The notes below the pieces were generated by a model. It worked only from the letters and a program-made list of their open reading frames with translations. It was not told the origin of the DNA and did no database searches. This document shows positions 1 to 17,350 of a stretch of DNA of 62,093 nt, one piece after another. The stretch is taken from positions 1 to 62,093 of the forward strand of contig NZ_JACIDE010000019.1 of the NCBI RefSeq assembly GCF_014196205.1. Direction: 5' to 3'. The position numbers were made by a program, and so were the translations under genes. Positions within the stretch are counted from its first letter, which is position 1; every line of letters starts with the position of its first letter. The stretch comes from Anoxybacteroides voinovskiense (GTDB taxonomy: Bacteria; Bacillota; Bacilli; Bacillales; Anoxybacillaceae).

Positions 1-79
1 TCGAAAACTCGTGCGTGTGATCGATGCGCTGCTACGCAACGGTCAAATCTACACGCCAAGAAAGGGGGAAGATCGATAG
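1..79 (+). mobile_element. 3' end of an IS110-family-like transposase gene (partial, cut by window edge)
   Basis: The frame open from base 2 to the TAG at 77-79 encodes 25 residues beginning RKLVRVIDALLRNGQIYTP. This resembles the C-terminal tail of IS110/IS116/IS902 transposases (DEDD recombinases), where a basic (R)KL..V.(D/H)ALL motif precedes the stop. Only the tail is present, so the family call is by resemblance only. It points toward the comQXPA cassette and is followed by two tight hairpins (71-90 and 92-117), as expected of a structured noncoding IS end. Confidence 0.5.
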
Positions 80-117
80 GGGTATCGATCTAACTGATTT
101 TGTATCAAAACCCAGTT
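71..117. other. Two consecutive hairpins after the transposase stop
   Basis: GATCGATA at 71-78 and TATCGATC at 83-90 form a perfect 8-bp stem with a GGGG loop that overlaps the transposase stop codon. AACTG at 92-96 pairs with CAGTT at 113-117 around a partly paired interior. Such folds are common at IS termini, and in IS110-type elements the noncoding end can encode the guide (bridge) RNA. Which role applies here cannot be told from this fragment. The IS boundary was not located. Confidence 0.4.
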
Positions 118-236
118 AATGACATCGGACAAGACTAGGCTTCTTAAGTATTGTCTTTTTTCGGATCATCGGACAATCGAATTTCCAATTTCGATGATTT
201 TTCACCTTGACATATTACCGCAGGACTTTCCCCTCC

Positions 237-271
237 ATTATATCCCTTCTCTCTTTCTTCTTCACCGCCAA
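237..271 (-). promoter_or_regulatory. Promoter end of module A (TATAAT plus adjacent TTGGCGG box)
   Basis: On the minus strand TATAAT (242-237) lies downstream of TTGGCGG (271-265). The distance between them equals that in module B (4999-4965), although the intervening bases differ. No good TTGACA -35 is present, which fits an activator-dependent promoter. Transcription would start near 230 and run into the IS remnant. No convincing gene follows before the window edge, so the promoter looks orphaned. Confidence 0.55.
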
Positions 272-359
272 CTTGTGTCGGAACCCCGCCATTTTTTGGC
301 GGTGCGCACGCCAATTTTGGCGAACTAGACAAAAACACCCTCATCCATCCGATGAGGAC
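262..359 (-). repeat. Module A: divergent direct repeat of 4990-5088
   Basis: This roughly 98-bp stretch aligns with module B over its whole length in the same orientation, with scattered substitutions and small indels. In minus-strand order it contains a stem-loop with a T-run (357-330), then half-sites of the type TTGGCGG at 317-322, 309-314, 297-302, 286-291 and 265-271. These form two inverted pairs plus a single copy. The two modules flank the comQXPA cassette and the secreted-protein gene. Confidence 0.75.
329..357 (-). terminator. Terminator at the 3' end of comA
   Basis: On the minus strand CCTCATC, loop GGATG, GATGAGG form a 7-bp stem followed by GTGTTTTTGTC. The stem overlaps the comA stop codon (341-343), so the last comA codons are part of the hairpin. 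The matching stem in module B differs in sequence but still pairs when G-U pairs are allowed, so the structure is conserved. Confidence 0.65.
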
Positions 360-1012
360 GTTAACAACATATAATGCTCTGGAATGAATCCCAATTGTTT
401 TGCTTTTTCCACCGCTTCTATCCGAGAGGATACACATAATTTTGAAAAAATACGCGATAGCTGTCTTTCTAGGCTCCGCTGGCTCATGCAGTGCTTTCTT
501 GCAATCTCTTTATTGCTTAAACCGTTGGCAACCTCTATCAATATATTTTGTTCAAACATGTCGAGCGCGATATGTTCCACCTCTTCTCCCATCCTAGCTT
601 TCACTTCGAAAAGCCGCAGCTGACGCAGAACATGTACAGGAATGACCGCCTCATCTCGTAGCGCACAGCGAATCGCTGTAATTAATTGCTCACTTGATGC
701 GGTTTTACTGACAAAGCCTGTAATGCCTGATTCAATGAAATAATTTAAAAAAGGAACAATATCATATCCGGTATAGATGACAATTTTCGCATTCGGCTGT
801 TTTTCGAGAATTCGTTTACTCAATTCGATACCGCTCATATCCGGCATACACCAGTCAAGTAAACATACATCATACGCACGTTGCTCGATCATTTGTTCTG
901 CTTCGCTCGCAGATGTCGTAATGTCTACTTGAAAATCCCCTTCACATTCGAGCACATTTTTCGTACCTTCACAAACAAGAAGATGATCGTCGACAATTAA
1001 AATACGAGCCAT
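341..1012 (-). CDS. comA: ComA-like response regulator (NarL/LuxR family)
   Basis: This 223-residue two-domain response regulator has an N-terminal receiver domain whose phosphoacceptor Asp lies in CLLDWCMPDMSG (about residue 52), with the Thr/Ser and Lys switch residues further on (VIYTGY and FVSKTAS). A C-terminal LuxR-type helix-turn-helix follows (ANGLSNKEIARKHCMSQRSLERQ). It ends a four-gene unit comQ-comX-comP-comA, starting 21 bases after comP behind an AAAGGAGAG ribosome site. In Bacillus, ComP phosphorylates ComA once ComX has accumulated, and ComA activates promoters through TTGCGG-type half-sites. The stop codon lies within the terminator stem. Identity rests on family features plus operon context; alone it could be any NarL-type regulator. 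Confidence 0.88.
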   Translation of the reverse strand: MARILIVDDHLLVCEGTKNVLECEGDFQVDITTSASEAEQMIEQRAYDVCLLDWCMPDMSGIELSKRILEKQPNAKIVIYTGYDIVPFLNYFIESGITGFVSKTASSEQLITAIRCALRDEAVIPVHVLRQLRLFEVKARMGEEVEHIALDMFEQNILIEVANGLSNKEIARKHCMSQRSLERQLSRIFSKLCVSSRIEAVEKAKQLGFIPEHYMLLTSSSDG

Positions 1013-1033
1013 GCTTCTCTCCTTTCCATACGT

Positions 1034-3289
1034 CTATAATGGGATGGTGATCGTTATCTCTAATCCAGAGCCATAGGATGACGCGATTTGGCATGTTCCA
1101 CCTAATCCTTGCACACGCTCTTTTATTCCAAATAATCCTAAATTACCATGATGATCATTTAATTTTTCCATCTCTATTCCTACTCCATCGTCCACATAAC
1201 GAAGTTGAACAGCCTCATCTTGCGTATCCAATACGAGTTGGAGCGTCGATGCTTGTGAATGTTTTACGGCGTTGTTTAACAATTCTTGTATGATCCGATA
1301 AATCGCCAGTTCCTGTTCTTCTCCTAATTTAGCTTGTATGTGAACATTCCACTTTACTTTTATATTCGTACGTAAATGAAATCGGTCAATAAGCTGCGAG
1401 ATTGCTTGTTTTAGTCCCATTTGACTCAAAAATGGCGGTCTTAATTCATGACATATTTCTCTCGTTACATCAATTACATCTAAAATTTCCTCTTCCATGT
1501 CGCTTAGCCGCTTTTGCATATCTTCCGTGCCCATATATTGAATACGCAAGTTTTCGACTTTCTTTTTTAACAAAATTAAATCTTGAAGCAATGTATCATG
1601 CAAATCGATCGCAAGTTTTTTTCTTTCGCGTTCTGACCATTGGAACATCAACCGTGTAAACAAAATGGAATGTTCTTTTTCTTTTAAGCTGTCTAACTCT
1701 TTCAGTAACTCCTCTACTTTTAACATGTTTTCGATCGTCATACTCGTATAATAAACAATGGTAGATAGCCAATCTTTTTGCTCGGTGCGAAAGGAAAGAG
1801 GACGTTTCTTTTTCCCTACTAGCCATAAAGGTGTTTGACGAAATGAACCGATAAACACGACAAATAAGGAGCGATGTTCCGTTACGCGACCAATCGAAAG
1901 TGGAGCACCATTTATTTTTTGGACGATATTCGCCCAATGTTCTTCATTGTACTCAAAAGAAAGCGGTTCGTTTATGGACTGTATTACCTCTATTTTTTCT
2001 ACGTCCAAAATTTCTTGCAATTCCTTTTCCAAACAATACATGGCTCCTTCTACTGTACGTTGTTTTTTCAGTTGTTCACTTATGCGATACAAACTCTCTT
2101 CATAAAAATGTTTTTGCATACGTAATTTTGCCCGCCATTTGCGGTCTAACCATTCTTTTATGTAAAAAGCAGCAAGAACGATGATATAAACGATAGAAAA
2201 TAAAACAACAAGTTCAGCCCATTTGCTAGAGCGATGGATCCATTGATTGTACACAATCATCATAAAAAAAGATGGGAATAATGCAAACAAACCGAGATAC
2301 TTTAACCGCTCGATGGAAAATGGCAGTTGAAACAGTTGATCTGTTGCCATTAAATAAAAGAAAACGATCGGTAAGGCGAAAAGAAAGCTAACTGTTAATT
2401 CCGCTGGCAATATCCATTTTTTCATCACTAGCATAGGAAGGCTATAAAAGAAAAGAAATGGGATCGTCGATAAACTAATTGCCAATAACAATCCTTTTAC
2501 GGTATGTTGCTGTTCATCTTTTTTCAGATCAACGAACCCTTTTCCTAACAAAGCAAGAATGATAACCATATTGATAAAAAATGCCGTCAATAACACTTCC
2601 GTTTCACTTATCGAACGAAACGGTATAGACATCAGTGAAATAATAAACATCACAACGTTAAACCCATAAAGGGAAAAGACGATTTTTTTCGCAAACCATA
2701 TCTTCTTTTCTTTTTCAAAATAGTTGTAAACAAAATGCAAAAATAGCGGAGGCAGCATGAAAAATACACCGCTGAATATTTGCCTTCCAAAAGGCGCATG
2801 TTTCGCCGATAAGCTGGCACTGATATAACAAAGCCCTGTCGATAACAACAAGTAAATCAGCACGGTCGCCGAACTACTATCTGGTCGCAAACGAAGCAAA
2901 AATATGCTTAAACGAACAGCGAATAGAAAAAAACATGTCGGCAAAATAATATAATACAACCACTGTTCCGTTCCATGCGCTAGATAGTCAATCACCAAAG
3001 TTTGGATTTGATTTCCTCTTTGAATAGTGATTGCTTTTGCTTGTTCAATCGTTTTGTATTTCTGAACCGTAAAATGGGACAGCGGAGGCTTTCCATCTAT
3101 TTTTAACACTTGATCATAAATATGAATCCCATGTTTTTTTGCCCAGCCAAACTCATAAAGATCGTTAACAACCACAGCGCCCTTCTTTTCTACTACATCC
3201 ATGCCGATCAATGGATGTTTCACATTTAAAACGGTTAAATATAGCGCTAAAATCGAAGCAAAAATCATGGCAATAACTGTTCGATTCAT
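1034..3289 (-). CDS. comP: ComP-like membrane histidine kinase
   Basis: This 751-residue sensor kinase starts with one membrane helix, then an extracytoplasmic PDZ-like segment (about residues 30-105), then a block of further hydrophobic helices to about residue 370. This is the layout of B. subtilis ComP. The cytoplasmic half carries a HisKA_3 dimerisation/phosphoacceptor motif (LAIDLHDTLLQDL, His near residue 560) and a HATPase domain with N box NNAVKHS, DDGVGIE and GLFGIKERVQGLGG. It is expected to sense prenylated ComX outside the cell and phosphorylate ComA. It begins 6 bases after the comX stop without a strong Shine-Dalgarno, so translational coupling is likely. ComP sensor regions vary with pheromone type, so its partner should be the adjacent ComX. 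Confidence 0.9.
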   Translation of the reverse strand: MNRTVIAMIFASILALYLTVLNVKHPLIGMDVVEKKGAVVVNDLYEFGWAKKHGIHIYDQVLKIDGKPPLSHFTVQKYKTIEQAKAITIQRGNQIQTLVIDYLAHGTEQWLYYIILPTCFFLFAVRLSIFLLRLRPDSSSATVLIYLLLSTGLCYISASLSAKHAPFGRQIFSGVFFMLPPLFLHFVYNYFEKEKKIWFAKKIVFSLYGFNVVMFIISLMSIPFRSISETEVLLTAFFINMVIILALLGKGFVDLKKDEQQHTVKGLLLAISLSTIPFLFFYSLPMLVMKKWILPAELTVSFLFALPIVFFYLMATDQLFQLPFSIERLKYLGLFALFPSFFMMIVYNQWIHRSSKWAELVVLFSIVYIIVLAAFYIKEWLDRKWRAKLRMQKHFYEESLYRISEQLKKQRTVEGAMYCLEKELQEILDVEKIEVIQSINEPLSFEYNEEHWANIVQKINGAPLSIGRVTEHRSLFVVFIGSFRQTPLWLVGKKKRPLSFRTEQKDWLSTIVYYTSMTIENMLKVEELLKELDSLKEKEHSILFTRLMFQWSERERKKLAIDLHDTLLQDLILLKKKVENLRIQYMGTEDMQKRLSDMEEEILDVIDVTREICHELRPPFLSQMGLKQAISQLIDRFHLRTNIKVKWNVHIQAKLGEEQELAIYRIIQELLNNAVKHSQASTLQLVLDTQDEAVQLRYVDDGVGIEMEKLNDHHGNLGLFGIKERVQGLGGTCQIASSYGSGLEITITIPL

Positions 3290-3295
3290 CGTGAT

Positions 3296-3451
3296 CTACA
3301 TCCAATATCCAAGCGGTCTAGTCGATTCGCTAAACACCTTTATCACCGCTTTTACCTCTAACTCACTTAAACCGATCAGGCTCACCGTACCATTTTGTAA
3401 TTTTTCGATGACTTCCGGATGTTCGACTAAAAAGCGAATGATTTGTTGCAT
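3296..3451 (-). CDS. comX: ComX pheromone precursor (51 aa)
   Basis: A short gene lies exactly between comQ and comP. Translation starts at ATG 3451-3449 behind GGAGGGAG (spacing 9) and stops at TAG 3298-3296. The N-terminus MQQIIRFLVEHPEVIEKL and the internal SLIG followed by an acidic stretch match the ComX propeptide pattern (MQ.LI..FL..PE, then LIG). The C-terminus, ending ESTRPLGYWM, places a single Trp one residue from the end. In characterised systems ComQ prenylates this Trp and the C-terminal peptide of about 5-10 residues is released as the signal. The mature peptide here would lie within that ending. Size, position, start site and the Trp all agree; the mature ends and the isoprenoid cannot be read from DNA. 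Confidence 0.9.
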   Translation of the reverse strand: MQQIIRFLVEHPEVIEKLQNGTVSLIGLSELEVKAVIKVFSESTRPLGYWM

Positions 3452-3472
3452 CACAATCTCCCTCCAACATCC

Positions 3473-4363
3473 TTAAATAAATGTTTTCAGCACAGATTTA
3501 TACGCATCATCTACGTCTAGTTTTTCGATTTCTTGCAACGCTTTTTCCTTGTAAATTTGGCTCATCACTTTTGCGTAATAAAACGCTCCTTCCTGTCCCA
3601 TTTGCTGAAGTGCTTTTTCTTTTTGGACATACATCCGATCGTAGTCCATATCGTTGTTGAAATACTGCTTCCACAAGTTATTTTGTTTGCTTTCTAGCAT
3701 ATACAAAATCGGAAGCGACTTTTTCTTTGCTTGAATATCAGCTTTTTTATCCCAGTTGTATAGCGCATCAAGGTCATTGTCGATTTGTGCTGCAATGCCG
3801 ATGTAGCGAGCATACGTTTCAATCGCTGCGATGTCCTCTTTTCCTGCTAATAATGCTCCGATGACACAAGCCATCGCAACAAGAGAGCCTGATTTTTTCT
3901 CTACCATTTTTATATATTCTGCTTCTGTTTGTACGTCACACGCCACATCAGTCTGTTGTCCGTGTACACTTTGCAACAAGCAAGACGTAACATATGACAG
4001 TGCCTTTAATTTCTTTTCATCAGCAATGTGTGAATGAGCAATTACTTGCTGACCTAATAACAAAAACCCAATCGCAGTATGTACGGTAATCGCATCATCT
4101 TTTAACCGATCTTGATCGACTACATCATCCAATAAATCCCCAGCAAGCACGATCAATTCAATAGCCGCTGCGATATATGTTGAGTGATCTCCTTGTGTCG
4201 AAAACAAGTCATAATGCAAATAAGCCAACCGCCCAAACAACAAATCGCTCTCTTTCATATGTGACTCGATTGCCACCAGCATGTGTGCTTTCAGTCGCGG
4301 TTCCGACACCAATTGTTCCACGATTTCTTTCATTTGCTTCGCTATTTTTTCTTTTTCACTCAT
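3473..4363 (-). CDS. comQ: ComQ-like isoprenyl transferase (ComX-modifying)
   Basis: This 296-residue polyprenyl-synthetase-fold protein has a first Asp-rich motif in LAGDLLDDVVDQD (about residues 92-104) and a second in QIDNDLDALYNWD (about residues 191-203). These are the Mg2+-diphosphate ligands of the family. ComQ uses a prenyl diphosphate to modify a Trp of ComX, and the comX gene follows 21 bases downstream. It is the first gene of the cassette. About 74 bases separate its ATG from the terminator of the secreted-protein gene, so it probably has its own promoter there, although none stands out. The protein is diverged from housekeeping farnesyl or heptaprenyl synthases, and context makes ComQ the best call. 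Confidence 0.88.
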   Translation of the reverse strand: MSEKEKIAKQMKEIVEQLVSEPRLKAHMLVAIESHMKESDLLFGRLAYLHYDLFSTQGDHSTYIAAAIELIVLAGDLLDDVVDQDRLKDDAITVHTAIGFLLLGQQVIAHSHIADEKKLKALSYVTSCLLQSVHGQQTDVACDVQTEAEYIKMVEKKSGSLVAMACVIGALLAGKEDIAAIETYARYIGIAAQIDNDLDALYNWDKKADIQAKKKSLPILYMLESKQNNLWKQYFNNDMDYDRMYVQKEKALQQMGQEGAFYYAKVMSQIYKEKALQEIEKLDVDDAYKSVLKTFI

Positions 4364-4435
4364 CCTATCGCACCTTGCACAAATATTTACAAATAGGGAA
4401 TATTCGACAATTTCAATAAAATTCCTTCCTGAAAA

Positions 4436-4466
4436 ATAAAAAGACTTGTCGAAGATTGTGACAAGT
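4436..4466 (-). terminator. Terminator of the secreted-protein gene
   Basis: On the minus strand AAGACTTGTC and GACAAGTCTT form a 10-bp stem followed by TTTATTTTT. It sits 22 bases past the stop of 4488-4931 and upstream of comQ, so the two units are likely transcribed separately. Confidence 0.8.
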
Positions 4467-4487
4467 CTTTTGCTTTGCTATCACTTA

Positions 4488-4931
4488 CTACCCAATAGAA
4501 CGATTAGCATTGCAATAAAATTCTATACTTGTTGAAATCGTATATGTTGCACCATTATAGGAATATTTCCCTGACACAGTAATGACGTATGTGCGACCAC
4601 CATCAATTAATTCCGCATTATATCCTGTCTGTGTCCACGTCCCACTGCCAGACGCTTTTGAGGAGATCGATTTAACTCCCGAAAACAGTTGTCTTTTATG
4701 AACATCACTATACTGAGTTTCAAAAGTCCCTGTCACATACAAAGTTTGAACGGTTTGTCCAACTTGGATCGTTGTTGTTTTTGTCTTTGAGGCAATCGAT
4801 TGAGGAGTAATCGTCCCCGATTCTTTTATCCCCGTTTGATTGGAATTTGCCAATGAATCTTTTCCTATGCCAAATAAAATTCCTCCAACAAGCATTACCG
4901 TTACTGCTATGCTTACAAATTGACGAATCAT
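4488..4931 (-). CDS. Small secreted protein of unknown function
   Basis: I do not recognise this protein. It has 147 residues from ATG 4931, chosen because AAAGGAGG lies 9 bases upstream; an in-frame ATG at 4976 has no such site. A signal peptide is clear: MIRQ, a hydrophobic core FVSIAVTVMLVGGILFGI, then a likely cleavage after SLA. The mature part of about 120 residues is rich in Ser, Thr, Tyr and Gly with alternating beta-type patterns (TYVITVSGKYSY, TYTISTSIEFY) and one Cys near the end. That suggests a small extracellular beta protein. Its promoter is embedded in module B and it is divided from comQ by a terminator. It is a candidate output of the quorum-sensing system, by position only. 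Confidence 0.75.
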   Translation of the reverse strand: MIRQFVSIAVTVMLVGGILFGIGKDSLANSNQTGIKESGTITPQSIASKTKTTTIQVGQTVQTLYVTGTFETQYSDVHKRQLFSGVKSISSKASGSGTWTQTGYNAELIDGGRTYVITVSGKYSYNGATYTISTSIEFYCNANRSIG

Positions 4932-4964
4932 TTTAAAAATTCCTCCTTTCGTTTTGATAGTTTG

Positions 4965-4999
4965 ATTATAATTCACTTTTTTCCATTATTCACCGCCAA
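4965..4999 (-). promoter_or_regulatory. Promoter end of module B, upstream of the secreted-protein gene
   Basis: TATAAT (minus strand, 4970-4965) lies at the same distance from TTGGCGG (4999-4993) as in module A. The start codon of the secreted-protein gene is 34 bases further on. No TTGACA-like -35 is visible, which suggests activator dependence. Confidence 0.65.
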
Positions 5000-5088
5000 C
5001 ATGTTGTCGAACCCCGCCATTTTTTTGACGGTGCGCCCACCAATTTTGGCGGACTAGACAAAAATTTCCTTACCGATCCGACAAGGAC
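4990..5088 (-). repeat. Module B: regulatory direct repeat of 262-359
   Basis: This module aligns throughout with module A. In minus-strand order it has a G-U-containing stem-loop (5086-5068), a T-run, and half-sites at 5046-5052, about 5038-5043, 5026-5031, 5014-5019 and 4993-4999. Site 5026-5031 (TGACGG) and the 5038-5043 site are degenerate relative to module A. It lies between the pheT terminator and the secreted-protein gene, so its stem-loop would act as a second barrier to read-through. Confidence 0.75.
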
Positions 5089-5130
5089 ATAAAAACCCCC
5101 ATCCAATGCTCATGCATCAGATGGGGGACG
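5089..5130 (-). terminator. pheST terminator
   Basis: On the minus strand CCCCCATC pairs with GATGGGGG (5127-5120 with 5103-5096), followed by TTTTTAT directly after the pheT stop. Confidence 0.85.
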
Positions 5131-5132
5131 TT

Positions 5133-7547
5133 TTATGCGCGCAATGTGGCGCCGAATTGTTGTTCGACAGCTTTGATCACTTGTTCGTGAACGTTTGTTA
5201 CTTCTTCATCCGTTAATGTCCGTTCTGGGTCGTAGTAACGGAGCGAGAAGGCGATCGATTTTTTGCCTTCTGGAAGGCGATCGCCTTTGTAGACGTCGAA
5301 AATCGATACGTCCTTCAACAGTTCGCCGCCTGCTTCGATAATCGCTTTTTGCAACTCACCCGCGACGACATGTTCATCGACGACAAGGGCAATGTCGCGT
5401 GCAATCGATGGGAAGCGTGGAATCGCGGTATAGCGAATGTCGTCTACTTCCGCTTTCAGCAACGCTTCAAGGTCTAGCTCAAACACGTACGTTTCTTTCA
5501 AATCAAATTGTTTTTGCACGACCGGATGTAGCTGACCGATAAAACCAATTGTTTTGCCGTCTAGCAACATATCGGCTGTGCGCCCTGGATGAAGGTGCTC
5601 GCGTTTTGCTTGTTTGTATTCCACGCGGTTTTCTAATCCTAGCAACGCAAACAAACCATCTAAAATCCCTTTTGCAACATAAAAATCAACCGCTTTTTTC
5701 TCTCCTTGCCACAAATGCGCATGCCATACGCCTGTCACAACGCCTGCGAGGCGCTCTTTTTCGTTTGGCAGTTCGTGCTCTCCGTTAGCTAAGTATACCG
5801 AGCCAATTTCATATAGCGCAACGTTTTCGACTTGGCGGGCGCGGTTGTAGCTTGCCGCTTCCAATAAGTGCGGCACTAAGCTTTGCCGCAAGACGCTGCG
5901 TTCTTCACTCATTGGCAATGCCAAACGAATCGATTCCGCCGTTTCAAGCGCAAACATCGGCGCTTTTGCTTCATTTGTAAGCGAGTACGTAATCGCTTGG
6001 AACAAGCCCGCATCTTCTAAATAACGGCGCACGTGGCGGCGCTTTGCTTGATATGGGGTGAGTTTCCCTGGCTTTGCTTCCCCGACTGGAAGCGTTGCTG
6101 GCAAGTTGTCATAGCCATAAAGGCGCGCCACTTCTTCAATAATATCTTCTTCAATCGTAATATCGCGGCGGCGCGATGGAACGGTAATCGTAAACGTCCC
6201 GTTATCTTCTGTGAACATAAATTGCAAGTTGGTTAAAATGCCTGCGACTTCTTCTTTCGTAATTGTTGTGCCAAGCACGTTATTGATACGGTCTAATGTA
6301 ATCGTGACAACAACATCTTTTCGTTGCAGCGTGTTCACTTCGACAACACCGCCAATGACTTCGCCGCCAGCATATTCCGCCATTAAAGCAGCGGCTCGGT
6401 CAAGCGCTTCTTTCGTGCGCGCTGGGTCGATGCCTTTTTCAAACCGTGTGCTCGACTCGCTGCGCAATCCGTGATCTTTGACCGCCTGACGAATGACAGG
6501 ACTTATGAAATACGCGGACTCAATAAATACGGTCGTTGTGTCGTTTTTCACTTCCGAATTGGCACCGCCCATCACACCAGCTAAGGCGACAGGCTCTTTC
6601 CCGTTTGTAATGACAAGATGCTCCTCTGTTAACGTGCGCTCTACATCATCAAGCGTCACGATTGTTTCACCGGCTTTTGCGCGGCGAACGACAATTTCTT
6701 TTGAACCGAGGCGGTCATAGTCAAACGCATGAAGCGGCTGACCGTACTCAAGTAAAATGTAGTTCGTAATATCAACGACATTATTATGTGGGCGAATGCC
6801 GGCCGCCATTAAACGCGTTTGCATCCAAAGCGGTGACGGACCGATTTTCACGTTTTTCACAATGCGCCCTGCGTATAACGGATTGTCTTCTGGTGCATCG
6901 ACGCGAACGGAAATGTAGTCGTGGACGTTTTCGCTGTTTTCTTGTAGCTCAACTGCCGGAAGCTTCACGCTCCGCCCTAAAATCGCCGCCACTTCATAAG
7001 CGACACCGATCATGCTTAAACAATCGGCGCGATTTGGCGTCAATCCTAACTCCAATACTTCATCGTCCAAGTTGAGCAATTCAAGCGCATCGACACCGAC
7101 TGGCGCATCGCTTGGGAAAACGAAAATGCCGTCGGCGTATTCTTTCGGCACTAATTTTGACTCCACGCCGAGTTCTTGCAACGAGCAAATCATGCCATTC
7201 GATTCTTCGCCGCGCAATTTCGCACGTTTGATTTTCAAATTTCCTGGCAAAACTGCCCCGACTTTGGCGACAGCGACCTTTTGTCCTTTTGCCACGTTCG
7301 GTGCCCCGCAAATAATTTGCACCGGCTCCCCTTCCCCGATATCGACAAGACATTTGCTTAATTTATCAGCATTTGGATGCTGCCCGCGCTCAAGCACATG
7401 GCCGATGACCACTCCTTGCGCTCCTTTATTTAACACTTCCACACTTTCCACTTCAATCCCGCTTTTCGTAATGCGGTCGGCTAATTCTTTTGCGGTAATG
7501 CCTGCTAAATCGACATATTCCTGTAGCCATTTATATGAAACGAACAT
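5133..7547 (-). CDS. pheT: Phenylalanyl-tRNA synthetase beta subunit
   Basis: The 804 residues match bacterial PheT in length. From the N-terminus there is an EMAP/tRNA-binding OB domain (about 40-150, with [16 protein letters not shown]), the B3/B4 editing region (about 210-400), B5 (about 405-480), a synthetase-like core and a C-terminal anticodon-binding domain (about 710-804, [10 protein letters not shown]). With PheS it forms the alpha2-beta2 enzyme that charges tRNA-Phe. It starts 15 bases after pheS, behind AAAGGGAGG, and is controlled by the T-box leader ahead of pheS. In B. subtilis rnhC follows pheT; here the quorum-sensing island follows. Confidence 0.97.
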
Positions 7548-7562
7548 CCATTAAACCTCCCT

Positions 7563-8597
7563 TTACACCCGGTTAAATTGTTGCAAGAAACGAACATCGT
7601 TTTGATAAAAATGACGGATGTCGTCAATGCCGTATTTGAGCATCGCAATACGCTCCGGTCCCATCCCAAACGCAAAGCCCGTATATTTTTTCGAATCAAA
7701 TCCTGCCATTTCAAGTACGTTCGGATGAACCATCCCGGCACCTAAAATTTCAATCCAACCTGTTCCTTTACATACGTTGCAGCCGTGCCCACCGCAATTA
7801 AAACACGACACATCGACTTCAACAGACGGTTCTGTAAATGGGAAAAAGCTTGGACGGAAGCGAATGTCGCGATCTTCGCCAAACATTTTGCGAGCAAACT
7901 CGCGCAACGTTCCTTTTAAGTCGCTCATGCGAATATGTTCATCGACGACAAGCCCTTCAATTTGCGTAAATTGATGCGAATGTGTCGCATCGTCGTTGTC
8001 GCGACGATATACTTTTCCCGGGCAAATGATTTTTACTGGACCGCGTCCTTGATGTTTTTCCATCGTGCGCGCTTGCACAGGTGACGTATGCGTGCGCAAT
8101 AAAATTTCCTCTGTAATATAAAAGGAATCTTGCATATCGCGCGCTGGATGACCTTTTGGCAAATTGAGCGCTTCAAAGTTGTAATAGTCTTTTTCGACTT
8201 CCGGTCCTTCAGCAATCGTATAGCCCATGCCGATAAATAAATCTTCAATTTCTTCAATGACGCGCGTTAACGGATGATGATTGCCGCGTCTAATCGGACG
8301 TCCTGGAAGTGTCACGTCAATCGCTTCCGCCGCTAATTTTTTCTCGACTTCTGCTTGTTCAAGGGTTGCTTGCTTTGCTTCAAGCGCTGTTTGAATCACT
8401 TCGCGCACTTCGTTCACAAGCGCTCCCATGACAGGACGCTCTTCAGGAGACAATGCTCCCATGCCGCGCAGCACTTCTGTAATTGGACCTTTTTTGCCGA
8501 GATATGCGACGCGCACGTCATTGAGCGCTTTTAAATCGTTTGCCTGTTCAATTTTTTCAAGCGCTTCTTGTTGAAGCTGTTGTAACCGTTCTTTCAT
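7563..8597 (-). CDS. pheS: Phenylalanyl-tRNA synthetase alpha subunit
   Basis: This 344-residue class II synthetase alpha subunit has an N-terminal coiled coil (residues 1-85) for tRNA binding, motif 1 around [14 protein letters not shown], motif 2 with [17 protein letters not shown], and motif 3 near [14 protein letters not shown]. It makes Phe-tRNA together with PheT. It starts at ATG 8597 behind AAGGAGG and is preceded by a phenylalanine-type T-box leader of about 300 nt. Confidence 0.97.
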
Positions 8598-8611
8598 GTG
8601 AAATCCCTCCT

Positions 8612-8896
8612 TATTATGTATAAAAAATAAAAAACTCGCCCCTCACATAAGGGACGAGTGCACTCGCGGTACCACCCTTGTTAGCTATGCCGTTCGCATA
8701 GCTCACTTCATTCAGATAACGGCTTCCACCGGAACGCCTTTACATTTTGCATGCGCAAAATGGTCCAAGCGCCAACTCCCGAGGTGAATTCACTTGCTTC
8801 TACCATAAAAACGCTCGCAGTCTATGGCGTTTCCTCCCTGAATGGTGATCGGCAAGCTACTCTTCTCGATCATTGTCTTTCATATAATGAAATTCT
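8612..8896 (-). ncRNA. T-box leader of pheST
   Basis: The minus strand carries the diagnostic T-box AAGGGTGGTACCGCG (8679-8665), which pairs with the tRNA acceptor end and forms the antiterminator. A terminator follows, ACTCG...CGAGT (8659-8633) with a run of Ts. Upstream lies a long structured Stem I region. GAATTC near 8786-8793 contains a TTC triplet that would suit a Phe specifier, although I could not fold the stem to prove it. Uncharged tRNA-Phe would allow read-through into pheS. Confidence 0.92.
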
Positions 8897-8902
8897 TCAT
8901 TT

Positions 8903-8931
8903 ATTATAAGCAAATGGGGAATAACGTGCAA
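8903..8931 (-). promoter_or_regulatory. pheS promoter (sigma A type)
   Basis: TTGCAC (8931-8926) and TATAAT (8908-8903) are separated by 17 bases. The start site would be near 8896, at the head of the T-box leader. Confidence 0.8.
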
Positions 8932-8952
8932 GGTAATCGTGCAAACATACGT

Positions 8953-9702
8953 TTATTTTTTCTGTAAATGATACAGTAAAATGCCTGTCGCAACGGCTAC
9001 GTTTAACGATTCTGCCTTCCCATAAATCGGCACATATAAGTTTGTTGTCGTCTGTTGCAGCCACTTATCGCTTACTCCACTTCCTTCATTTCCAACAATT
9101 AATGCAAACGATGACGAAGGAGCGACAGAACGGTAGTCTACCCCATGTTGAAGCGATGTGCCATAAATGGGGATATGCTTGTTTTGGAAGCGAGCGATCC
9201 ATTGACCAATATTTCCTTTTACAACTGGCAAATGAAACAACGAACCTTGCGTAGCACGCATGACTTTTGCGTTATATATATCGGCACTCCCCTCTCCGAC
9301 AACAACAACATCTATCCCTGCCGCATCAGCGGTGCGAATAATCGTTCCTAAGTTTCCCGGATCTTGAACCGCGTCGATGAACAATGCCGTTTGTACACTA
9401 TCGACGCTCCAATGTAGGTGCTTGCACACTGCGATAATTCCTTGTGGTGTTTCCGTATCGCTTAATTCACCGATCACCGCTTCAGTGACAATCACTATCG
9501 GAATATTGTCCACGTTCCAGCTTGTCGGAATCGTTTTCGTTTCAGCTAAAATAAGCTGTTCAACGATGTTGCTTTTTAAAGCTTCTTCGACTAAATGGAA
9601 CCCTTCCACTAAAAATAGCCCCGTTTTCTCGCGTTCTTTTTTCGTGAGCAATTTTTTCCATTGCTTCACTTGCGGATTTTTCGTTGATTCAATGCGTTTC
9701 AA
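8953..9702 (-). CDS. SpoU/TrmH-family RNA 2'-O-methyltransferase (YsgA-like)
   Basis: This 249-residue SPOUT methyltransferase has an N-terminal substrate-binding part (KNPQVKQWKKLLTKKERE, LFLVEGFHLVEEAL) and a C-terminal knotted domain. The three motifs are visible: DPGNLGTIIRTADAAG, FALIVGNEGSGVSD and VPIYGKAESLNVAVATGILLY. It would transfer a methyl group from SAM to a 2'-OH in rRNA or tRNA; the exact target is unknown. I start it at TTG 9702 because GGAAAGGAAG lies 8 bases upstream and orthologues begin here; an in-frame ATG at 9738 is the alternative. It is divergent from sspI. Confidence 0.9.
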   Translation of the reverse strand: MKRIESTKNPQVKQWKKLLTKKEREKTGLFLVEGFHLVEEALKSNIVEQLILAETKTIPTSWNVDNIPIVIVTEAVIGELSDTETPQGIIAVCKHLHWSVDSVQTALFIDAVQDPGNLGTIIRTADAAGIDVVVVGEGSADIYNAKVMRATQGSLFHLPVVKGNIGQWIARFQNKHIPIYGTSLQHGVDYRSVAPSSSFALIVGNEGSGVSDKWLQQTTTNLYVPIYGKAESLNVAVATGILLYHLQKK

Positions 9703-9796
9703 TGCGTTTTCTTCCTTTCCTCTTCTCTCTCTATACATAATAACCGAAAAGCGCGCCAAAAATAAACGTGTAATACATAAAGCGAGGTGAAAAGAC

Positions 9797-10006
9797 ATGA
9801 ATTTAAATTTGCGCCATGCGATTATGACGAACGTCGCTAACAATACGAAAGAACAGTTAGAGGACACGATTGTCGACGCCATTCAGCGCGGCGAGGAAAA
9901 ATATTTGCCAGGACTTGGCGTCTTGTTTGAAGCGATTTGGAATCATTCTAATGAGCAGCAAAAAGAAACGATGCTTTCGACGCTAGAACAAGCAGTAAAG
10001 CAATGA
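9797..10006 (+). CDS. sspI: Small acid-soluble spore protein I
   Basis: The 69-residue protein closely follows SspI ([16 protein letters not shown], then [23 protein letters not shown]). It is a minor small acid-soluble protein of the spore core, normally made in the forespore under sigma G. The start is ATG 9797 behind AGCGAGGTG. It is monocistronic, divergent from the methyltransferase and closed by a strong hairpin. Its presence shows the host can sporulate. Confidence 0.95.
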
Positions 10007-10010
10007 ACAA

Positions 10011-10040
10011 AGGGGAAGTGGCCACCCACTTCCCCGATTT
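10011..10040. terminator. Bidirectional terminator between sspI and the M42 peptidase
   Basis: GGGGAAGTGG and CCACTTCCCC form a strong stem, with a T-run on the plus-strand side (ATTTTTTT) and a short T-run on the other, so it can serve both converging genes. Confidence 0.8.
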
Positions 10041-10042
10041 TT

Positions 10043-11128
10043 TTAATCAAATGTAATTTCCTGCACCTTTTTCGCATCGAGCCGCTTGATGACTTCAACA
10101 AGCAACTTCACGGTTTGTTCGTAGTCGTCGCGATGAAGCATGGCTGCATGCGAGTGAATGTAGCGCGTCGGGATAGCGATAGTGAGCGCTGGAACACCGC
10201 TTGCCGTTAAATGAATCGCCCCTGCATCGGTGCCTCCGCCCGGCATCGCATCAAAATGATACGGAATGTTTAACTGTTCCGCAACATCAATGACAAACTC
10301 GCGCAATCCTTTATGCGACACAAGCGTTGCATCGTATAACACGATATGCGGACCCGCACCAAGTTTGCCCATCGCTTCTTTTTCCGACACGCCTGGGGTG
10401 TCGCCAGCGATGCCGACATCCACCGCAAAGGCAATGTCTGGTTGAATCGTGTGCGCCGCTGTTTTCGCCCCGCGCAAGCCCACTTCTTCTTGCACCGTAC
10501 CAACGCCATATACCACATTCGGATGCTCCACATCTTTTAATTGTTTCAATACGTCAATGGCAATTGCGCAACCGATGCGGTTGTCCCATGCTTTGGCCAG
10601 CAACATTTTTTCGTTGTTCATGACGGTAAATTCAAAGTACGGCACAATCGAATCGCCTGGACGAACGCCCCAAGCAAGCGCTTCGTCACGGCTGGAGGCG
10701 CCAATGTCAATGAACATATCTTTGATTTCCACTGGTTTCTTGCGCGCTTCCGGCGGTAAAATGTGCGGCGGCTTCGAGCCGATGACGCCGGTGATGTCGC
10801 CTTTCTTCGTCATGATCGTTACACGCTGCGCAAGCATGACTTGCCCCCACCAACCGCCAAGCGGCTGGAAGCGGATGAAGCCTTTCTCATCGATTTGCGT
10901 CACCATAAATCCTACTTCGTCTAAGTGACCGGCAACCATAATTTTCGGACCGTTTTCGTTCCCTATCTTTTTCGCAATTAAACTGCCAAGACCATCGGTC
11001 GTTACTTCGTCGGCGTAAGGCGCGATATGTTTTTTCATCACTTCCCGGGCTTCCCGTTCATTGCCTGGGACGCCTTTAGCGTCCGTCAATTCTTTTAACA
11101 TTTGTAACGTCGGATCTAATTTTGCCAT
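10043..11128 (-). CDS. ysdC: M42-family metallo-aminopeptidase (YsdC-like)
   Basis: This 361-residue di-metal peptidase of the M42 (glutamyl aminopeptidase/endoglucanase-like) family shows metal ligands in [11 protein letters not shown], in the [12 protein letters not shown] segment, in [11 protein letters not shown] (catalytic/ligand Glu pair), in [10 protein letters not shown] and in [11 protein letters not shown]. Members form tetrahedral dodecamers that trim short peptides in the cytosol. ATG 11128 is used because AAAGGGG lies 7 bases upstream; a TTG two codons earlier is less likely. Gene order infC-rpmI-rplT-(dUTPase)-ysdC resembles other Bacillaceae. Confidence 0.92.
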
Positions 11129-11194
11129 CTTCAATCCCCTTTCACCGTCTCTTCCTCATTATACCGAAAACAATCGACGATGTACAAAAATTGG

Positions 11195-11683
11195 TTAATA
11201 ATGTTGCGTTTGCCGTTCATGGTTCACTTCATTTTTCGCGATGTATGCGCGCTCGATTTGCTCCGGCGTAAATTGCAGCGCATGCCCAAGCGCCGCATAC
11301 GAGCGCAGCAACGCTTCGTACGTTTCGAAAGTTAGCGACTGCCCAAACAAATGAATGGCTTGAAAAACGGTGAAAAACTGGGCAACGAGCGGTTTGCTTT
11401 CTTCAACGTTCGGCCACTCTATGCGCTCTGCCAACTGTAAATCTAACCCGAGCGATAAAATAAAATGCAGCCCATCCACGTATTCTTCTAAGATTGTTTC
11501 AAAAGAAGCAGGCGGTTTCGAGCTCCAAAATTTAAAACAGCGCGTTTCGTTTGCCAGTTCCCCTACTTCGACTAACAGCGCCAACAGTTTGCGCTCGACG
11601 AGATTTTCTCCCTTTAATCCGCGCTCGGTTTCAATTCGCTCATCTAGCTGCCGCTGCATCGTGTATAGACGGCGAATGTCCAT
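11195..11683 (-). CDS. Dimeric dUTPase (dUTPase_2, all-alpha NTP pyrophosphatase)
   Basis: The 162-residue protein has the all-alpha NTP pyrophosphatase pattern of dimeric dUTPases: ERKLLALLVEVGELANETRCFKFW (ExxE of the first helix pair) and EEYVDGLHFILSLG (ExxxD of the second), which bind Mg2+ ions. It would hydrolyse dUTP to dUMP and PPi, keeping uracil out of DNA and feeding dTMP synthesis. The start is ATG 11683 behind AAAGGGGGAG. It lies between rplT and ysdC, where B. subtilis has other genes. Exact nucleotide specificity is inferred from the family. Confidence 0.85.
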   Translation of the reverse strand: MDIRRLYTMQRQLDERIETERGLKGENLVERKLLALLVEVGELANETRCFKFWSSKPPASFETILEEYVDGLHFILSLGLDLQLAERIEWPNVEESKPLVAQFFTVFQAIHLFGQSLTFETYEALLRSYAALGHALQFTPEQIERAYIAKNEVNHERQTQHY

Positions 11684-11698
11684 GTACTCTCCCCCTTT

Positions 11699-11738
11699 AA
11701 AAAATGACCATTCTCTTAAGGAGAATGGCCATTCCATG
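11699..11738 (-). terminator. Terminator after rplT
   Basis: On the minus strand AATGGCCATTCTC and GAGAATGGTCATT form a long stem, followed by TTTTTTAA, between the rplT stop and the dUTPase start. Confidence 0.8.
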
Positions 11739-11739
11739 C

Positions 11740-12099
11740 TTATTTATTTAAGTTTTCTTTTGCGATGTTTGCTAGTTGTGTAAACGCTGCCGCATCGTTT
11801 ACTGCTAAATCTGCAAGCATTTTACGGTTCACTTCTACGCCCGCAAGCTTTAAGCCGTGCATTAAACGGCTGTAAGAAAGACCGTTCATGCGAGCAGCTG
11901 CGTTAATACGCGTAATCCAAAGTTTACGGAAATCACGTTTCCGTTGACGACGGTCGCGATATGCGTACATTAATGATTTCATTACTTGTTGGTTCGCGAC
12001 TCTATATAAACGATGTTTAGAACCGAAATAGCCTTTTGCAAGTTTAAGAATTTTTTTACGACGTCTGCGCGTTACTGTTCCGCCTTTTACACGTGGCAT
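11740..12099 (-). CDS. rplT: 50S ribosomal protein L20
   Basis: The 119 residues match L20 throughout ([29 protein letters not shown]). The extended basic N-terminal arm threads into 23S rRNA and is needed early in 50S assembly. It is third in infC-rpmI-rplT. In B. subtilis free L20 represses the operon by causing termination in the leader, and a matching leader is visible at 12867-13080. Confidence 0.98.
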
Positions 12100-12124
12100 G
12101 TATATTCCCTCCTACGAATGATCG

Positions 12125-12325
12125 TTATTTTACGTTGTCAAGCAATTGACGAATGCGTTTGAAGTCGCCAGAAGATACAAGCGTTGCTTTGCGAAGTTTG
12201 CGTTTTTGTTTTTGTGTTTTGTTGGCGAATAAATGGCTAGTAAATGCATGAGAACGTTTTAATTTCCCAGTGCCCGTCTTTTTAAAACGCTTTGCAGAGC
12301 CTTTATGTGTTTTCATTTTTGGCAT
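12125..12325 (-). CDS. rpmI: 50S ribosomal protein L35
   Basis: The 66-residue protein is typical L35 ([24 protein letters not shown]), a small basic protein of the large subunit. It lies 25 bases upstream of rplT and 22 bases after infC in the conserved operon. Confidence 0.98.
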
Positions 12326-12347
12326 AAGGTGTATCCTCCTCGTTCGA

Positions 12348-12863
12348 TTATTTATCGTTTTTCGGCGCTAACACTAAAAACATGCTGCGTCCGTCCATTT
12401 TTGGTGCCGATTCCACGACACTAATATCAGCGCATGCTTCAGAAAAACGGTCTAATACACGTTGACCAATTTCTTTATGCGTAATTGCCCGCCCTTTAAA
12501 GCGAATCGTCGCTTTCACTTTGTCTCCTTTTTCAAGGAATTTGCGTGCGTTGCGGAGTTTCGTGTTAAAATCGTGCTCTTCAATCGTCGGGCTTAAGCGC
12601 ACTTCTTTGACGTTAATGACTTTTTGCTTTTTGCGCGCTTCTTTTTCTTTCTTTTGTTGCTCGAAGCGGAATTTGCCGTAGTCCATAATGCGGCATACCG
12701 GCGGTTTCGCGTTTGGCGCCACCATCACTAAATCAAGGTTCAGTCTTGCAGCGATTTCTAACGCCTCTTGCTTTGATTTAATGCCTAATTGTTCGCCGTT
12801 TTGGTCAATTAAACGAACTTCACGTGCACGAATGCCTTCGTTAACGATAAAATCTTTGCTAAT
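12348..12863 (-). CDS. infC: Translation initiation factor IF-3 (ATT start codon)
   Basis: This 171-residue IF-3 has an N-terminal domain to about residue 75 ([13 protein letters not shown]-type start, [20 protein letters not shown]), a basic linker ([18 protein letters not shown]) and a C-terminal domain that binds the 30S P site. It keeps subunits apart and proofreads initiation. The start is ATT at 12863-12861: GGAGGTG lies 7 bases upstream, the reading begins at the conserved ISKDFIVNE, and no ATG, GTG or TTG is available nearby. IF-3 rejects AUU starts, so this codon gives negative feedback, as known for infC in other bacteria. Confidence 0.95.
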
Positions 12864-12866
12864 AAC

Positions 12867-13081
12867 TAGCCACCTCCAAGGTTTTTTCCGAATGACTTGT
12901 TTGTTTTTTGCACCCTTTGCGAAAAGCTTCTTCATTTCGAAATAAAAAACGTGGATGCATACGACACCCACGCTCATTACGCTCTATAACCGAACCGTAA
13001 CAACCTGCCAACAGCGAATGGCGTCAGCCAGGTGAGAAGCGGGTGCTTCTGCTTTTGTCACAAACAAGTATTCTATTCGAC
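12867..13081 (-). ncRNA. infC operon leader with attenuator (L20-leader type)
   Basis: About 215 nt lie between the promoter and infC. They end in an intrinsic terminator (CGTGG, loop, CCACG at 12972-12950 followed by TTTTTTATTT) that lies before the infC ribosome site. In Bacillus, L20 binding to this leader promotes termination. The position, operon and terminator fit that model; I did not derive the L20-binding fold. Confidence 0.75.
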
Positions 13082-13087
13082 TTATGT

Positions 13088-13116
13088 AGTATACCATGTT
13101 GGAAGCGGCATGTCAA
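13088..13116 (-). promoter_or_regulatory. infC-rpmI-rplT promoter
   Basis: A near-perfect sigma A promoter: TTGACA (13116-13111), 17-base spacer, TATACT (13093-13088). Confidence 0.88.
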
Positions 13117-13187
13117 TTTTTTATTCCCTGCTTTCGCACAACATGTTTCATTATACCGAATGTTATTACTGTTGGCAACTATTTTTT

Positions 13188-13217
13188 TAAAACCTGCGGA
13201 AGAAACTTCCGCAGGTT
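13188..13217 (-). terminator. thrS terminator
   Basis: AACCTGCGGAAG and CTTCCGCAGGTT form a 12-bp stem with a 3-base loop, followed on the minus strand by TTTTAAAAAAA, directly after the thrS stop. Confidence 0.8.
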
Positions 13218-13220
13218 CGG

Positions 13221-15152
13221 TTAACGGCGCGCTTCTCTTTTTAACGTTGCGATAAAGTCTTCAAGCGCCATCGTTTCGCTTTTTTGTTCTCCGTATTTGC
13301 GGACGTTGACCGTTCCTTCTTTCATTTCGTTATCTCCGACTACCAGCATATACGGAATTTTTTGTATTTGTGCTTCGCGAATTTTATAGCCGATTTTCTC
13401 ATCTCGCTCATCGACTTCCACGCGGAATCCTTGTGCTTGAAGCGCTTCTTTTACTTTGTATGCATAGTCAACATGGACGGCAGGCGACACTGGAATGACT
13501 TCGACTTGCACCGGCGCAAGCCATGTCGGGAACGCTCCCTTATATTCTTCAATTAAAAACGCCACAAAGCGTTCCATCGTCGAAACAACGCCGCGGTGAA
13601 TGACGACCGGACGATGCGGTTTTCCGTCTTCGCCAATATACGTTAAATCAAAGCGCTCCGGCAGTAAGAAATCAAGCTGAACGGTCGAGAGCGTTTCGTC
13701 TTTTCCAAGCGCTGTACGTACTTGCACGTCTAATTTTGGCCCATAAAACGCTGCTTCTCCTTCTGCTTCGTAATAGTCGAGCCCTAGCTCGTCCATCGCT
13801 TCACGCAACATCGTTTGCGCTTTTTCCCACATCGCATCGTCATCGTAATATTTTTCTTTATCTTGCGGGTCGCGATATGACAGACGGAAGGAATAGTCAT
13901 CAAGCCCAAAATCTTTATACACTTCAAGAATTAAGTTGACGACGCGCTTGAATTCGTCTTTGATTTGATCTGGACGGACAAAAATGTGCGCATCGTTTAG
14001 TGTCATTCCCCGCACGCGTTGTAAGCCGGTCAACGCCCCAGACATTTCATAGCGATGCATCGTTCCAAGCTCAGCAATGCGAATCGGCAGCTCACGATAG
14101 CTATGCATTTTGTTTTTGTAAATCATCATATGGTGCGGACAGTTCATCGGACGAAGCACGAGTTGCTCATTGTCCATTTCCATCGGTGGGAACATGCCAT
14201 CTTTATAATGATCCCAGTGTCCAGACGTTTTATATAGCTCGACACTGCCAAGCACCGGTGTGTAGACGTGTTGGTAGCCAAGTTCTAATTCTTTATCGAC
14301 GATATAGCGCTCAATTGTACGACGAATCGTCGCCCCTTTTGGCAGCCAAAGCGGCAATCCTTGTCCTACTTTTTGCGATGTCGTAAACAGCTCTAATTCT
14401 TTTCCTAGCTTACGATGGTCGCGTTCTTTCGCTTCTTGCAAGAGGCGAAGGTATTCGTCGAGCGCTTCTTTTGTAAAGAACGCCGTACCGTAAATGCGCT
14501 GCAACATTTTATTGTTGCTGTCGCCACGCCAATATGCTCCGGCGATGTTTAGCAGCTTAAACTCTTTAATTTTTCCTGTCGATGGGACATGAACGCCGCG
14601 GCAAAGGTCAAAAAATTCGCCTTGTTCATAAATCGAAACGACTTCTCCTTCTGGGATGTCGTGAATTAATTCAATTTTCAAATGATCGCCGATTTCTTCA
14701 TATCGTTGAATTGCTTCTTCACGGCTTACTTCTTTCCGGACAATTTCTAAGTTTTCTTTGACAATTTTCCGCATTTCTTGTTCGATTTTCGGAAGGTCTT
14801 CTGGTGTCAACGACTCTTCCATGTCAATATCGTAATAAAAGCCATTTTCAATAACAGGACCAACGCCAAGTTTTACATTTTTATACAACCGTTTAATCGC
14901 CTGTGCCATTAAATGGGCAGTGCTATGACGTAAAATGTCCAGCGCTTCTGGCATCTCTTGTGTAATAATGGAAATTGCTCCGTCTTCCGTAATTGGCGTC
15001 CGCAAATCAAGTAACCGCTCGTTGAGTTTTCCAGCAATCGCTTTTTTCTTTAGTCCTGGGCTAATCGATGCAGCAATTTCTTCAGTCGTAATCCCTTTCG
15101 GAAACTCCTTTACCGCTCCATCTGGAAACGTAATTTTCACTACTTCTGACAT
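13221..15152 (-). CDS. thrS: Threonyl-tRNA synthetase
   Basis: This 643-residue class II synthetase has a TGS domain (1-60, [16 protein letters not shown]), the N2 editing domain (about 65-230, with [10 protein letters not shown] carrying the metal/editing His), the catalytic core (about 260-530, [10 protein letters not shown] with a Zn-ligand Cys, [17 protein letters not shown]) and a C-terminal anticodon domain. It charges tRNA-Thr. Several starts are possible at the head; I use ATG 15152 (MSEVVKITF), which fits orthologues and is 8 bases from AAAGGAG. A T-box leader precedes it, so the gene answers to uncharged tRNA-Thr. Confidence 0.97.
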
Positions 15153-15169
15153 CATTTTCACTCCTTTTC

Positions 15170-15433
15170 GATAAATAAAAAAACTCCTCCCTCACACAAG
15201 GGACGAGTTTGTTTCGTGGTTCCACCCTTCTTCCCATCGCCAACAGCGATGGCTCGAATAGCATAACGGCGCCTTCTCCGTCACCTATTACTCGAACAAG
15301 TCTTTCACAGGTGAAGTTCCGAGGTGGTAAGTGCATTTTTCGTGTTAGGAAGGTTCCAGCCTAGCCTTCCCTCTCTGGAAACCGTAAAAATACACCCATG
15401 TCCTCATCATCACTTTTCCGTCGATCCATTATG
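15170..15433 (-). ncRNA. T-box leader of thrS
   Basis: The minus strand contains AAGGGTGGAACCACG (15229-15215), a T-box variant. A terminator follows, made by AACTCGTCCCTTGTG and its partner GAGGGAGGAGTT, with a T-run ahead of the thrS ribosome site. An ACC triplet in the ACTTACCACC context near 15325 would suit a Thr specifier, which is inferred only. Confidence 0.92.
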
Positions 15434-15439
15434 TACGTA

Positions 15440-15468: not shown

Positions 15469-15469
15469 G

Positions 15470-17336: not shown

Positions 17337-17350
17337 CTTCCCACATCCTA

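Follow-up and report, generated by a model that had tools for sequence, protein, structure and literature searches.

The window analysed here is the whole stretch of 62,093 nucleotides of Anoxybacteroides voinovskiense DNA, contig C19 (NZ_JACIDE010000019.1) of a 3.23-Mb draft genome (GCF_014196205.1), and the subject of the analysis is a repeated, promoter-like module present in two copies, A and B, on either side of a comQXPA quorum-sensing locus and a gene for a small, apparently secreted protein. Read along the minus strand, pheS-pheT and a terminator come first, followed by module B, the secreted-protein gene (147 aa) and a second terminator, then by comQ-comX-comP-comA and module A, and last by an IS110-type element before the contig end. 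The four quorum-sensing genes, all on the minus strand, are comA (341..1012), a response regulator with receiver and LuxR/GerE helix-turn-helix domains (Pfam) whose DNA-binding part is nearest to the solved ComA structures 2krf and 3ulq; comP (1034..3289), a histidine kinase (Pfam HisKA_3 and HATPase_c); comX (3296..3454), the pheromone precursor (Pfam PF05952, 83 bits against a cut-off of 25); and comQ (3473..4363), the ComX isoprenyl transferase (Pfam polyprenyl_synt, the role being taken from the gene order). A gene for a ComX family peptide and comQ, comP and comA in tandem on one strand, by which a comQXPA locus is recognized, were thus both present.

The secreted-protein gene (4488..4931, minus strand) was assigned by its open reading frame (ORF) and ribosome-binding site (RBS); throughout, 'secreted' refers to N-termini judged by eye. 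Its product has a signal-like N-terminus and a predicted all-beta mature part, and an alignment of eight members displayed near-invariant C-terminal two thirds and a variable N-terminus. No Pfam or NCBIfam family matched it, PHROG gave a weak match only and the best Foldseek hit had an E value of 0.08; an AlphaFold2 single-sequence model had a mean pLDDT (predicted local distance difference test) of 73, and a distant relative (48% over 82 aa) is encoded on a Priestia koreensis plasmid. An intrinsic terminator lies between this gene and comQ (4434..4476, minus strand; arms 4434-4450/4460-4476, -14.3 kcal/mol, z -3.7), and another follows pheT just upstream of module B (5093..5128, minus strand; -25.1 kcal/mol, z -5.2 for 5080-5132). 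The left end of the window, 3..229 (without assigned strand), shares 96% identity over 227 nt with L038:3293-3519, located after an ORF whose cluster includes L046:9678-10217, a match to Pfam DEDD_Tnp_IS110; this segment is hence presumably the end of an IS110-type element, which lies about 7-10 nt past the -10 box of module A and separates that promoter from any cargo.

Modules A and B form a direct repeat (276-364 and 5005-5093, 78% identity over 89 nt) and were matched by a profile hidden Markov model (HMM) at 261-366 (E 1.9e-29) and 4989-5095 (E 6.1e-27), respectively, among the fetched loci. When copy A was compared with its own genome by BLAST, copy B was retrieved at E 1.5e-22, the remaining matches being just 14-22 nt long, and a profile search of this genome at E<=10 gave one extra weak match (18.3 bits), which looks coding by eye. 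The arrangement proposed by an earlier, sequence-only reading of this DNA, namely two modules in the same orientation on either side of the secreted-protein gene and comQXPA, was confirmed. That reading had also placed a TATAAT box beyond each repeat, which stood for both copies; the direction had to be corrected, as both modules are read from the minus strand, with stem-loop and T-run first, then TGGCGG/CCGnCA half-sites, then TTGGCGGTGAA, 18 nt and finally TATAAT.

In module A (all parts on the minus strand), the terminator stem-loop with its T-run (322..362; -14.4 kcal/mol, z -3.1) overlaps the comA stop codon (ORF end 341) and is followed by the half-site array (261..323), composed of inverted repeat 1 (IR1, TGGCGT-N5-CCGCCA), inverted repeat 2 (IR2, TGGCGG-GGTT-CCGACA) and a proximal half-site TTGGCGG (265-271); on the plus strand the half-sites were located as CCGCCA at 265-270, CCGCCA/TGGCGG at 286-291/297-302 and CGCCA/TGGCG at 309-313/318-322. 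The -35-like hexamer GTGAAG (260..265) stands 17 nt before the -10 box TATAAT (237..242). In module B, likewise on the minus strand, a weak terminator-like stem-loop with a T-run (5052..5090; -7.2 kcal/mol, z -1.5), backed by the -25.1 kcal/mol stem after pheT, precedes the array (4989..5052) of IR1 (TGGTGG-N5-CCGTCA), IR2 (TGGCGG-GGTT-CGACAA, the second half degraded) and the proximal half-site TTGGCGG (4993-4999), followed by GTGAAT (4988..4993), 17 nt and TATAAT (4965..4970). The two inverted pairs plus one single half-site described from the sequence were recovered in module A; the stem-loop and the T-run were found in both copies, the stem of module B being weak. Counted from the first T of TTGGCGG (271; 4999), TATAAT ends after 35 nt in A and B alike, with differing 18-nt spacers, exactly as that reading had claimed; this distance is general among the relatives and can be read simply through the weak -35 GTGAAN, which abuts the proximal half-site 17 nt before the -10. 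A plus-strand TATAAT (370-375) to the right of module A was rejected as a promoter, as it lies in the comA coding sequence.

The sample of relatives consisted of 41 genomes of the family Anoxybacillaceae, one genome per species. The module was present in 22 of them by the profile search across relatives that the sequence-only reading had suggested, and the genes listed downstream were varied. Fetched loci gave 44 copies of at least 40 bits in 22 genomes (44 of 51 HMM rows were kept at this threshold), and the co-occurrence counts below are based on a profile search at E<=1e-3 with 47 hits, including two partial or weak ones in genome G017 and one in G011. In an even draw across the order, searched with stricter filters by which weak copies can be missed, 10 of 397 genomes carried the module, all inside the family. 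No match was found in phages, and a single plasmid record (A. amylolyticus) matched. Besides the copies at comA, 14 pheT-linked copies were found in 13 genomes, six of which are without comA; two of the pheT-linked copies lie on two contigs of G012, an assembly with 5% contamination that is possibly mixed.

Promoter features were counted in 43 copies (L029, cut by a contig end, was excluded); these are homologous, so that the counts of spacings and ORFs overstate independence, though the spacers themselves differ. The -10 box followed TTGGCGGTGAA after 18 nt in 41 copies and after 19 nt in two, with a perfect TATAAT in 34. When the downstream sequences were grouped into 21 clusters with one representative each, the best -10 within 60 nt stood at +18 in 20 representatives and at +19 in one. 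A weak -35 of the form GTGAA[A/G/T] adjoined the proximal half-site in 40/43 copies, 17 nt from the -10 in 41 and 18 nt in 2. The distal and proximal TGGCGG were 21 bp apart, two helical turns, in 37 copies, and a further upstream inverted repeat scoring at least 10/12 was found in 28/43 copies versus 1/2000 random places. The IR1 spacer was 4 or 5 nt across copies; in IR2 (n=4) the first half read TGGCGG in 37/43 and the second half was within two bases of CCGCCA in 22/43 and perfect in 3. The array of A. rupiensis (L026) is nearly ideal, with two perfect TGGCGG-N4-CCGCCA repeats and a proximal half-site. A start codon with an RBS and an ORF of at least 50 aa occurred 20-55 nt past the -10 in 24/43 copies versus 163/4000 random places, and in 0/43 on the opposite strand; by a looser rule (ORF of at least 28 aa within 200 nt) the number was 34. 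The fixed phase between half-site array and -10, read beforehand as the mark of a promoter module, was thereby borne out, and by these features the module is a family of promoters with a firm anatomy, very probably driven by an activator.

The strong fold of the repeats (-45.0 and -35.1 kcal/mol, z -4.5 and -2.9) could also suggest that they are transcribed and act as RNA regulators of the comA or pheT mRNA ends. This is scarcely credible, as the dyads come after a terminator and before the -10, and no Rfam family was found at the modules at gathering score in window positions 1-20000.

The genes headed by the promoter module differ widely. The secreted-protein gene of the window is headed by it in eight copies. 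Also headed by it are genes for a 132-aa protein (three genomes), for proteins of 56/184 aa and 169 aa, for small proteins of the membrane type, for KAS III and for DUF3419, an acyl carrier protein-like gene (matches below cut-offs), DUF5367 together with an erythromycin-esterase gene (assigned by cluster), and the gene of a 160-aa protein, after which comes one with a weak LolA-like match. In A. amylolyticus a sporulation killing factor (skf) operon (skfA, skfB, a CPBP protease, an ABC ATPase and skfF; NZ_CP015439) lies behind comA and a module, and likewise in G013; SkfA and SkfB were over their NCBIfam cut-offs, and skfB was over its cut-off in 2 of the 41 family genomes, both times directly behind comA and the module. 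The link between module and skf is less direct than that of other cargo.

Around this operon, the stretch of about 38 kb from skfA to pheT in A. amylolyticus (G010, L167) holds two comQXPA copies, one with comP split by an IS66 element, and also a thiopeptide cluster and a polymorphic-toxin gene. The record NZ_CP015439 is 258 kb long and labelled a plasmid, and carries pheST, two comQXPA copies and skf (1-50000); it may be a chromid or a mislabelled piece of chromosome. In G038 (L183, C1:3014000-3028000, at about 3006-8300), comQ and comX are intact, the first 522 residues of comP are joined in an 842-aa ORF that probably ends in SkfC, and skf-type ABC genes follow; this genome is without comA, the module and an skfB over cut-off. 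The locus looks like a deletion relic that would again link comA, module and skf.

How the cargo changes was compared segment by segment in twelve pairs picked by eye (three with the same cargo and different comA alleles, two with the same cargo and unrelated neighbours, six with the same neighbour and different cargo, and one sharing both sides). Between G029 and G002 (L046/L050), identity was 74% in the comA end, 47% in the distal boxes, 24/24 in the spacer and -10, and then 98-100% over about 860 bp; G029/G004 behaved likewise up to +400 and was divergent after. The skf pair G013/G010 (L040/L037) had 72% in the comA end, 50% in the distal boxes, 23/24 in the spacer and then 98%. Two pairs had unrelated neighbours: that of KAS III, with cargo at 96% and then 74% and a spacer of 18/24, and that of the 160-aa gene, with cargo at 94%, a spacer of 21/24 and a leader of just 50%. 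Where the neighbour was shared, G004 and G007 (L049/L043) had a module 100% identical, a spacer of 14/24 and unrelated cargo, and G013 and G012 at pheT were identical through the -10 and unrelated beyond. The comparison of G029 (L046) with window copy A was dropped as exchange evidence, being confounded by the IS110-like element.

Because near-identical cargo follows comA alleles that diverge, and the switch falls within the module, the promoter apparently serves as the joint for cargo exchange, and cargo changes joined at, or close to, the proximal half-site and the -10 are well supported in a few of these sequence pairs. Homologous recombination through the shared promoter, together with selection for an intact promoter, would be enough to explain this; a dedicated recombinase may take part. 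A repeat that is mainly a recombination or attachment site (of the integron attC kind, or a mobile-element end), with promoter features merely incidental, would fit the direct repeats with internal dyads that bracket exchangeable gene blocks and the cargo that changes in or beside them. The fixed -35/-10 spacing and the RBS and start on one strand only speak against it, as do the point of change, which differs between pairs, and the lack of phage matches and the single plasmid record (integrases were not systematically searched for), so that we regard it as very improbable.

As for the activator, ComA regulons are to our knowledge known from B. subtilis only. In the family, the module lies directly after 13/13 comA orthologs (at least 68% identity, 12 genomes) and is present in 12/12 genomes with comA versus 10/29 genomes without (Fisher p 9e-5, uncorrected for kinship); a genome was counted as comA-less when no match of at least 68% over nearly the whole of ComA was found, and G029 and G010 additionally hold C-terminal fragments. 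The expectation of the sequence-only reading that the module is tied to comA and not spread evenly among genomes therefore held for the enrichment with comA, and failed for the 10 comA-less genomes. Its other argument, the resemblance of the half-sites to the TTGCGG of ComA, was upheld, with TGGCGG differing by one base.

Two module copies, L047:7641-7750 (G029) and L051:7792-7901 (G026), adjoin sequence like the comA 3' end at another genome site, as judged from a listed comA C-terminal fragment in G029 and from the alignment alone in G026. In G031, a second comX (C1:976159-976308) stands about 0.6 kb before the module at 976873-976966 with no comA match between them, perhaps another decayed comQXPA copy.

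Several findings weigh against a promoter controlled by ComA. The comA-less genomes hold 15 of the 47 profile hits, many of the copies as intact as elsewhere, and genus g2 carries the module in all 9 genomes and comA in only 5; these copies would be explained by another regulator, by polymorphism at strain level or by a loss of comA in the recent past. The comA-linked modules follow two ComA C-terminal alleles and the unlinked ones do not, a comparison that is uninformative, and a module that recombines and is linked to comA would be found together with comA whether or not ComA bound it. In about half of the copies, module B among them, IR2 has a degraded second half-site; the direct-repeat partner at 5 nt, RE4, is absent, the RE3 columns being 95-100% conserved and +11..+16 reading AAGAGA. 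On the side of the cargo, 9/43 copies are without an RBS and ORF (at least 28 aa) within 200 nt, both skf copies among them; the skf copies have a -10 of TATATT and skfA about 0.37 kb downstream; and of the 34 module-headed ORFs two are of IS110 type and one has just 30 aa. The match to a core of 22 positions averaged 20.25 in comA-less genomes (12 copies) versus 21.26 (31 copies), and decay of the module in comA-less genomes was dropped as evidence, as this difference comes mostly from copies of genera g3 and g4 whose spacing is shifted by one base. Among distant comA loci (Pontibacillus, Paenibacillus, Metabacillus and Bacillus sp. J37; L089-L092, 4 of 80 loci), a scan for an inverted repeat, a half-site and a -10 gave one unconvincing match, in L090.

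The same kind of promoter could be served by another regulator, either another LuxR-type response regulator or Spo0A. Beyond the intact modules of the comA-less genomes, this is suggested by TTCGACA in about 18/43 copies, which we take to be the 0A box of Spo0A (TGTCGAA) read on the opposite strand, by the control of skf by Spo0A in B. subtilis, and by further matches to the window ComA at about 30% identity in all 41 family genomes. We nevertheless regard it as unlikely in view of the complete association of comA with the module; moreover, the conserved units are two TGGCGG 21 bp apart, and the 0A-like string is absent from over half of the copies. Control of the modules by ComA is, on the co-occurrence and the half-sites, likely.

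The ComA site of B. subtilis, according to the available part of the source, is TTGCGG-N4-CCGCAA (n=5 tolerated), with a further site adjoining a weak -35 (PMC4797271). Set beside these promoters, the module has a hexamer that departs from TTGCGG by one base, an inverted repeat with N4 spacing in roughly half of the copies (module A fits, module B does not), a first half-site better conserved than the second, and a proximal half-site that abuts a weak -35 with a sigma-A-type -10, the last combination being found as in the B. subtilis-type core (PMC4797271, in the part available). Unlike them, on the same source, it has inverted repeats stacked at about 21 bp, a built-in upstream terminator, near-identical copies that head unrelated genes and have apparently been exchanged with them, and no second half-site (RE4) 5 nt after RE3 (PMC4797271). 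As RE4 is missing, the module was not classed as a B. subtilis-type ComA promoter, though by this analogy it probably works alike.

The sequence-only reading had gone further and seen a self-contained unit, in which ComX, ComP and ComA act on their own bracketing promoters. Module B does lie upstream of comQXPA on the same strand, and read-through of the terminator at 4434-4476 could feed comQXPA. Promoter B, however, stands 33 nt upstream of the ATG of the secreted-protein gene and is, by its position, the promoter of that gene, which the terminator parts from comQ; promoter A faces away from comQXPA, and its counterparts in relatives precede cargo, in place of which the IS110-type element is found here. 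In G029 and G031, comQ was found without a module immediately before it, and G009 carries the module and the secreted gene behind pheT without comQ or comA. The closed circuit was thus not borne out, and such regulation of comQXPA itself is rather improbable.

The reading that we prefer, at a probability of roughly two in three, is an insulated, activator-dependent promoter of the sigma-A type, likely controlled by ComA and ComX, at which cargo is exchanged. Each module would be a promoter of about 130 bp whose terminator halts transcription arriving from comA or pheT and whose TGGCGG/CCGnCA half-sites, set as inverted repeats in steps of about 21 bp with the proximal one abutting the GTGAAN -35 17 nt from TATAAT, would bind the activator. 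ComP would sense ComX, and phosphorylated ComA would then bind the array and recruit RNA polymerase, as at the ComA promoters of B. subtilis; we infer that ComX probably switches the promoter on in this way. The output of module B would be the secreted-protein gene, and the cargo of module A would have been lost or displaced by the IS110-like element. Since different cargo is found behind the same module across the family, the pheromone regulon looks assembled by recombination at the promoter, by which cargo behind comA or pheT would be swapped and control kept. In its broadest form, the proposal that the ComX-ComA regulon has been built and rebuilt by recombination in an insulated promoter cassette, with weapon operons (skf, secreted proteins and possibly thiopeptide clusters) swapped behind comA or pheT and always pheromone-controlled, is one on which we hold the balance to be even.

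Read in this manner, the module would be a readable operator from which the probable ComX targets of the whole family can be listed from sequence, and the targets so listed comprise antimicrobial operons, skf included, and small proteins that are apparently secreted. It would also make testable the idea that recombination takes hold at a promoter, so that competing strains can trade weapons and keep them under the same pheromone. Elsewhere in the window, two T-box leaders and one L20 leader were found at Rfam gathering score (8647-8882, 15196-15419 and 12937-13060, respectively, minus strand).

A description of the module was not found in the portions available of the open-access literature on comQXPA/ComX in Anoxybacillus and Geobacillus, skf, pherotype flanks, promoter cassettes and Bacillales ComA motifs. 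Genes of the comQXPA type have already been mentioned in Anoxybacillus and Geobacillus, in a census (PMC4008528) and in Anoxybacillus genomes (PMC3948429); the locus of the window resembles those known in gene content and order, and differs in that the descriptions, as far as the accessible parts of these two sources go, cover genes without a promoter module or targets. The nearest likeness in organization is to the pneumococcal blp/BlpR regulon, which, in the part of the source available, likewise combines a two-component pheromone system and one promoter element common to variable cargo of the bacteriocin type (PMC5295010). By comparison with that same account (PMC5295010), ComX/ComQ and the LuxR-type ComA take the place of BlpC and BlpR in the system considered here, which has its modules at several loci, skf and KAS III among its cargo, and a cargo change that was mapped to the promoter itself.

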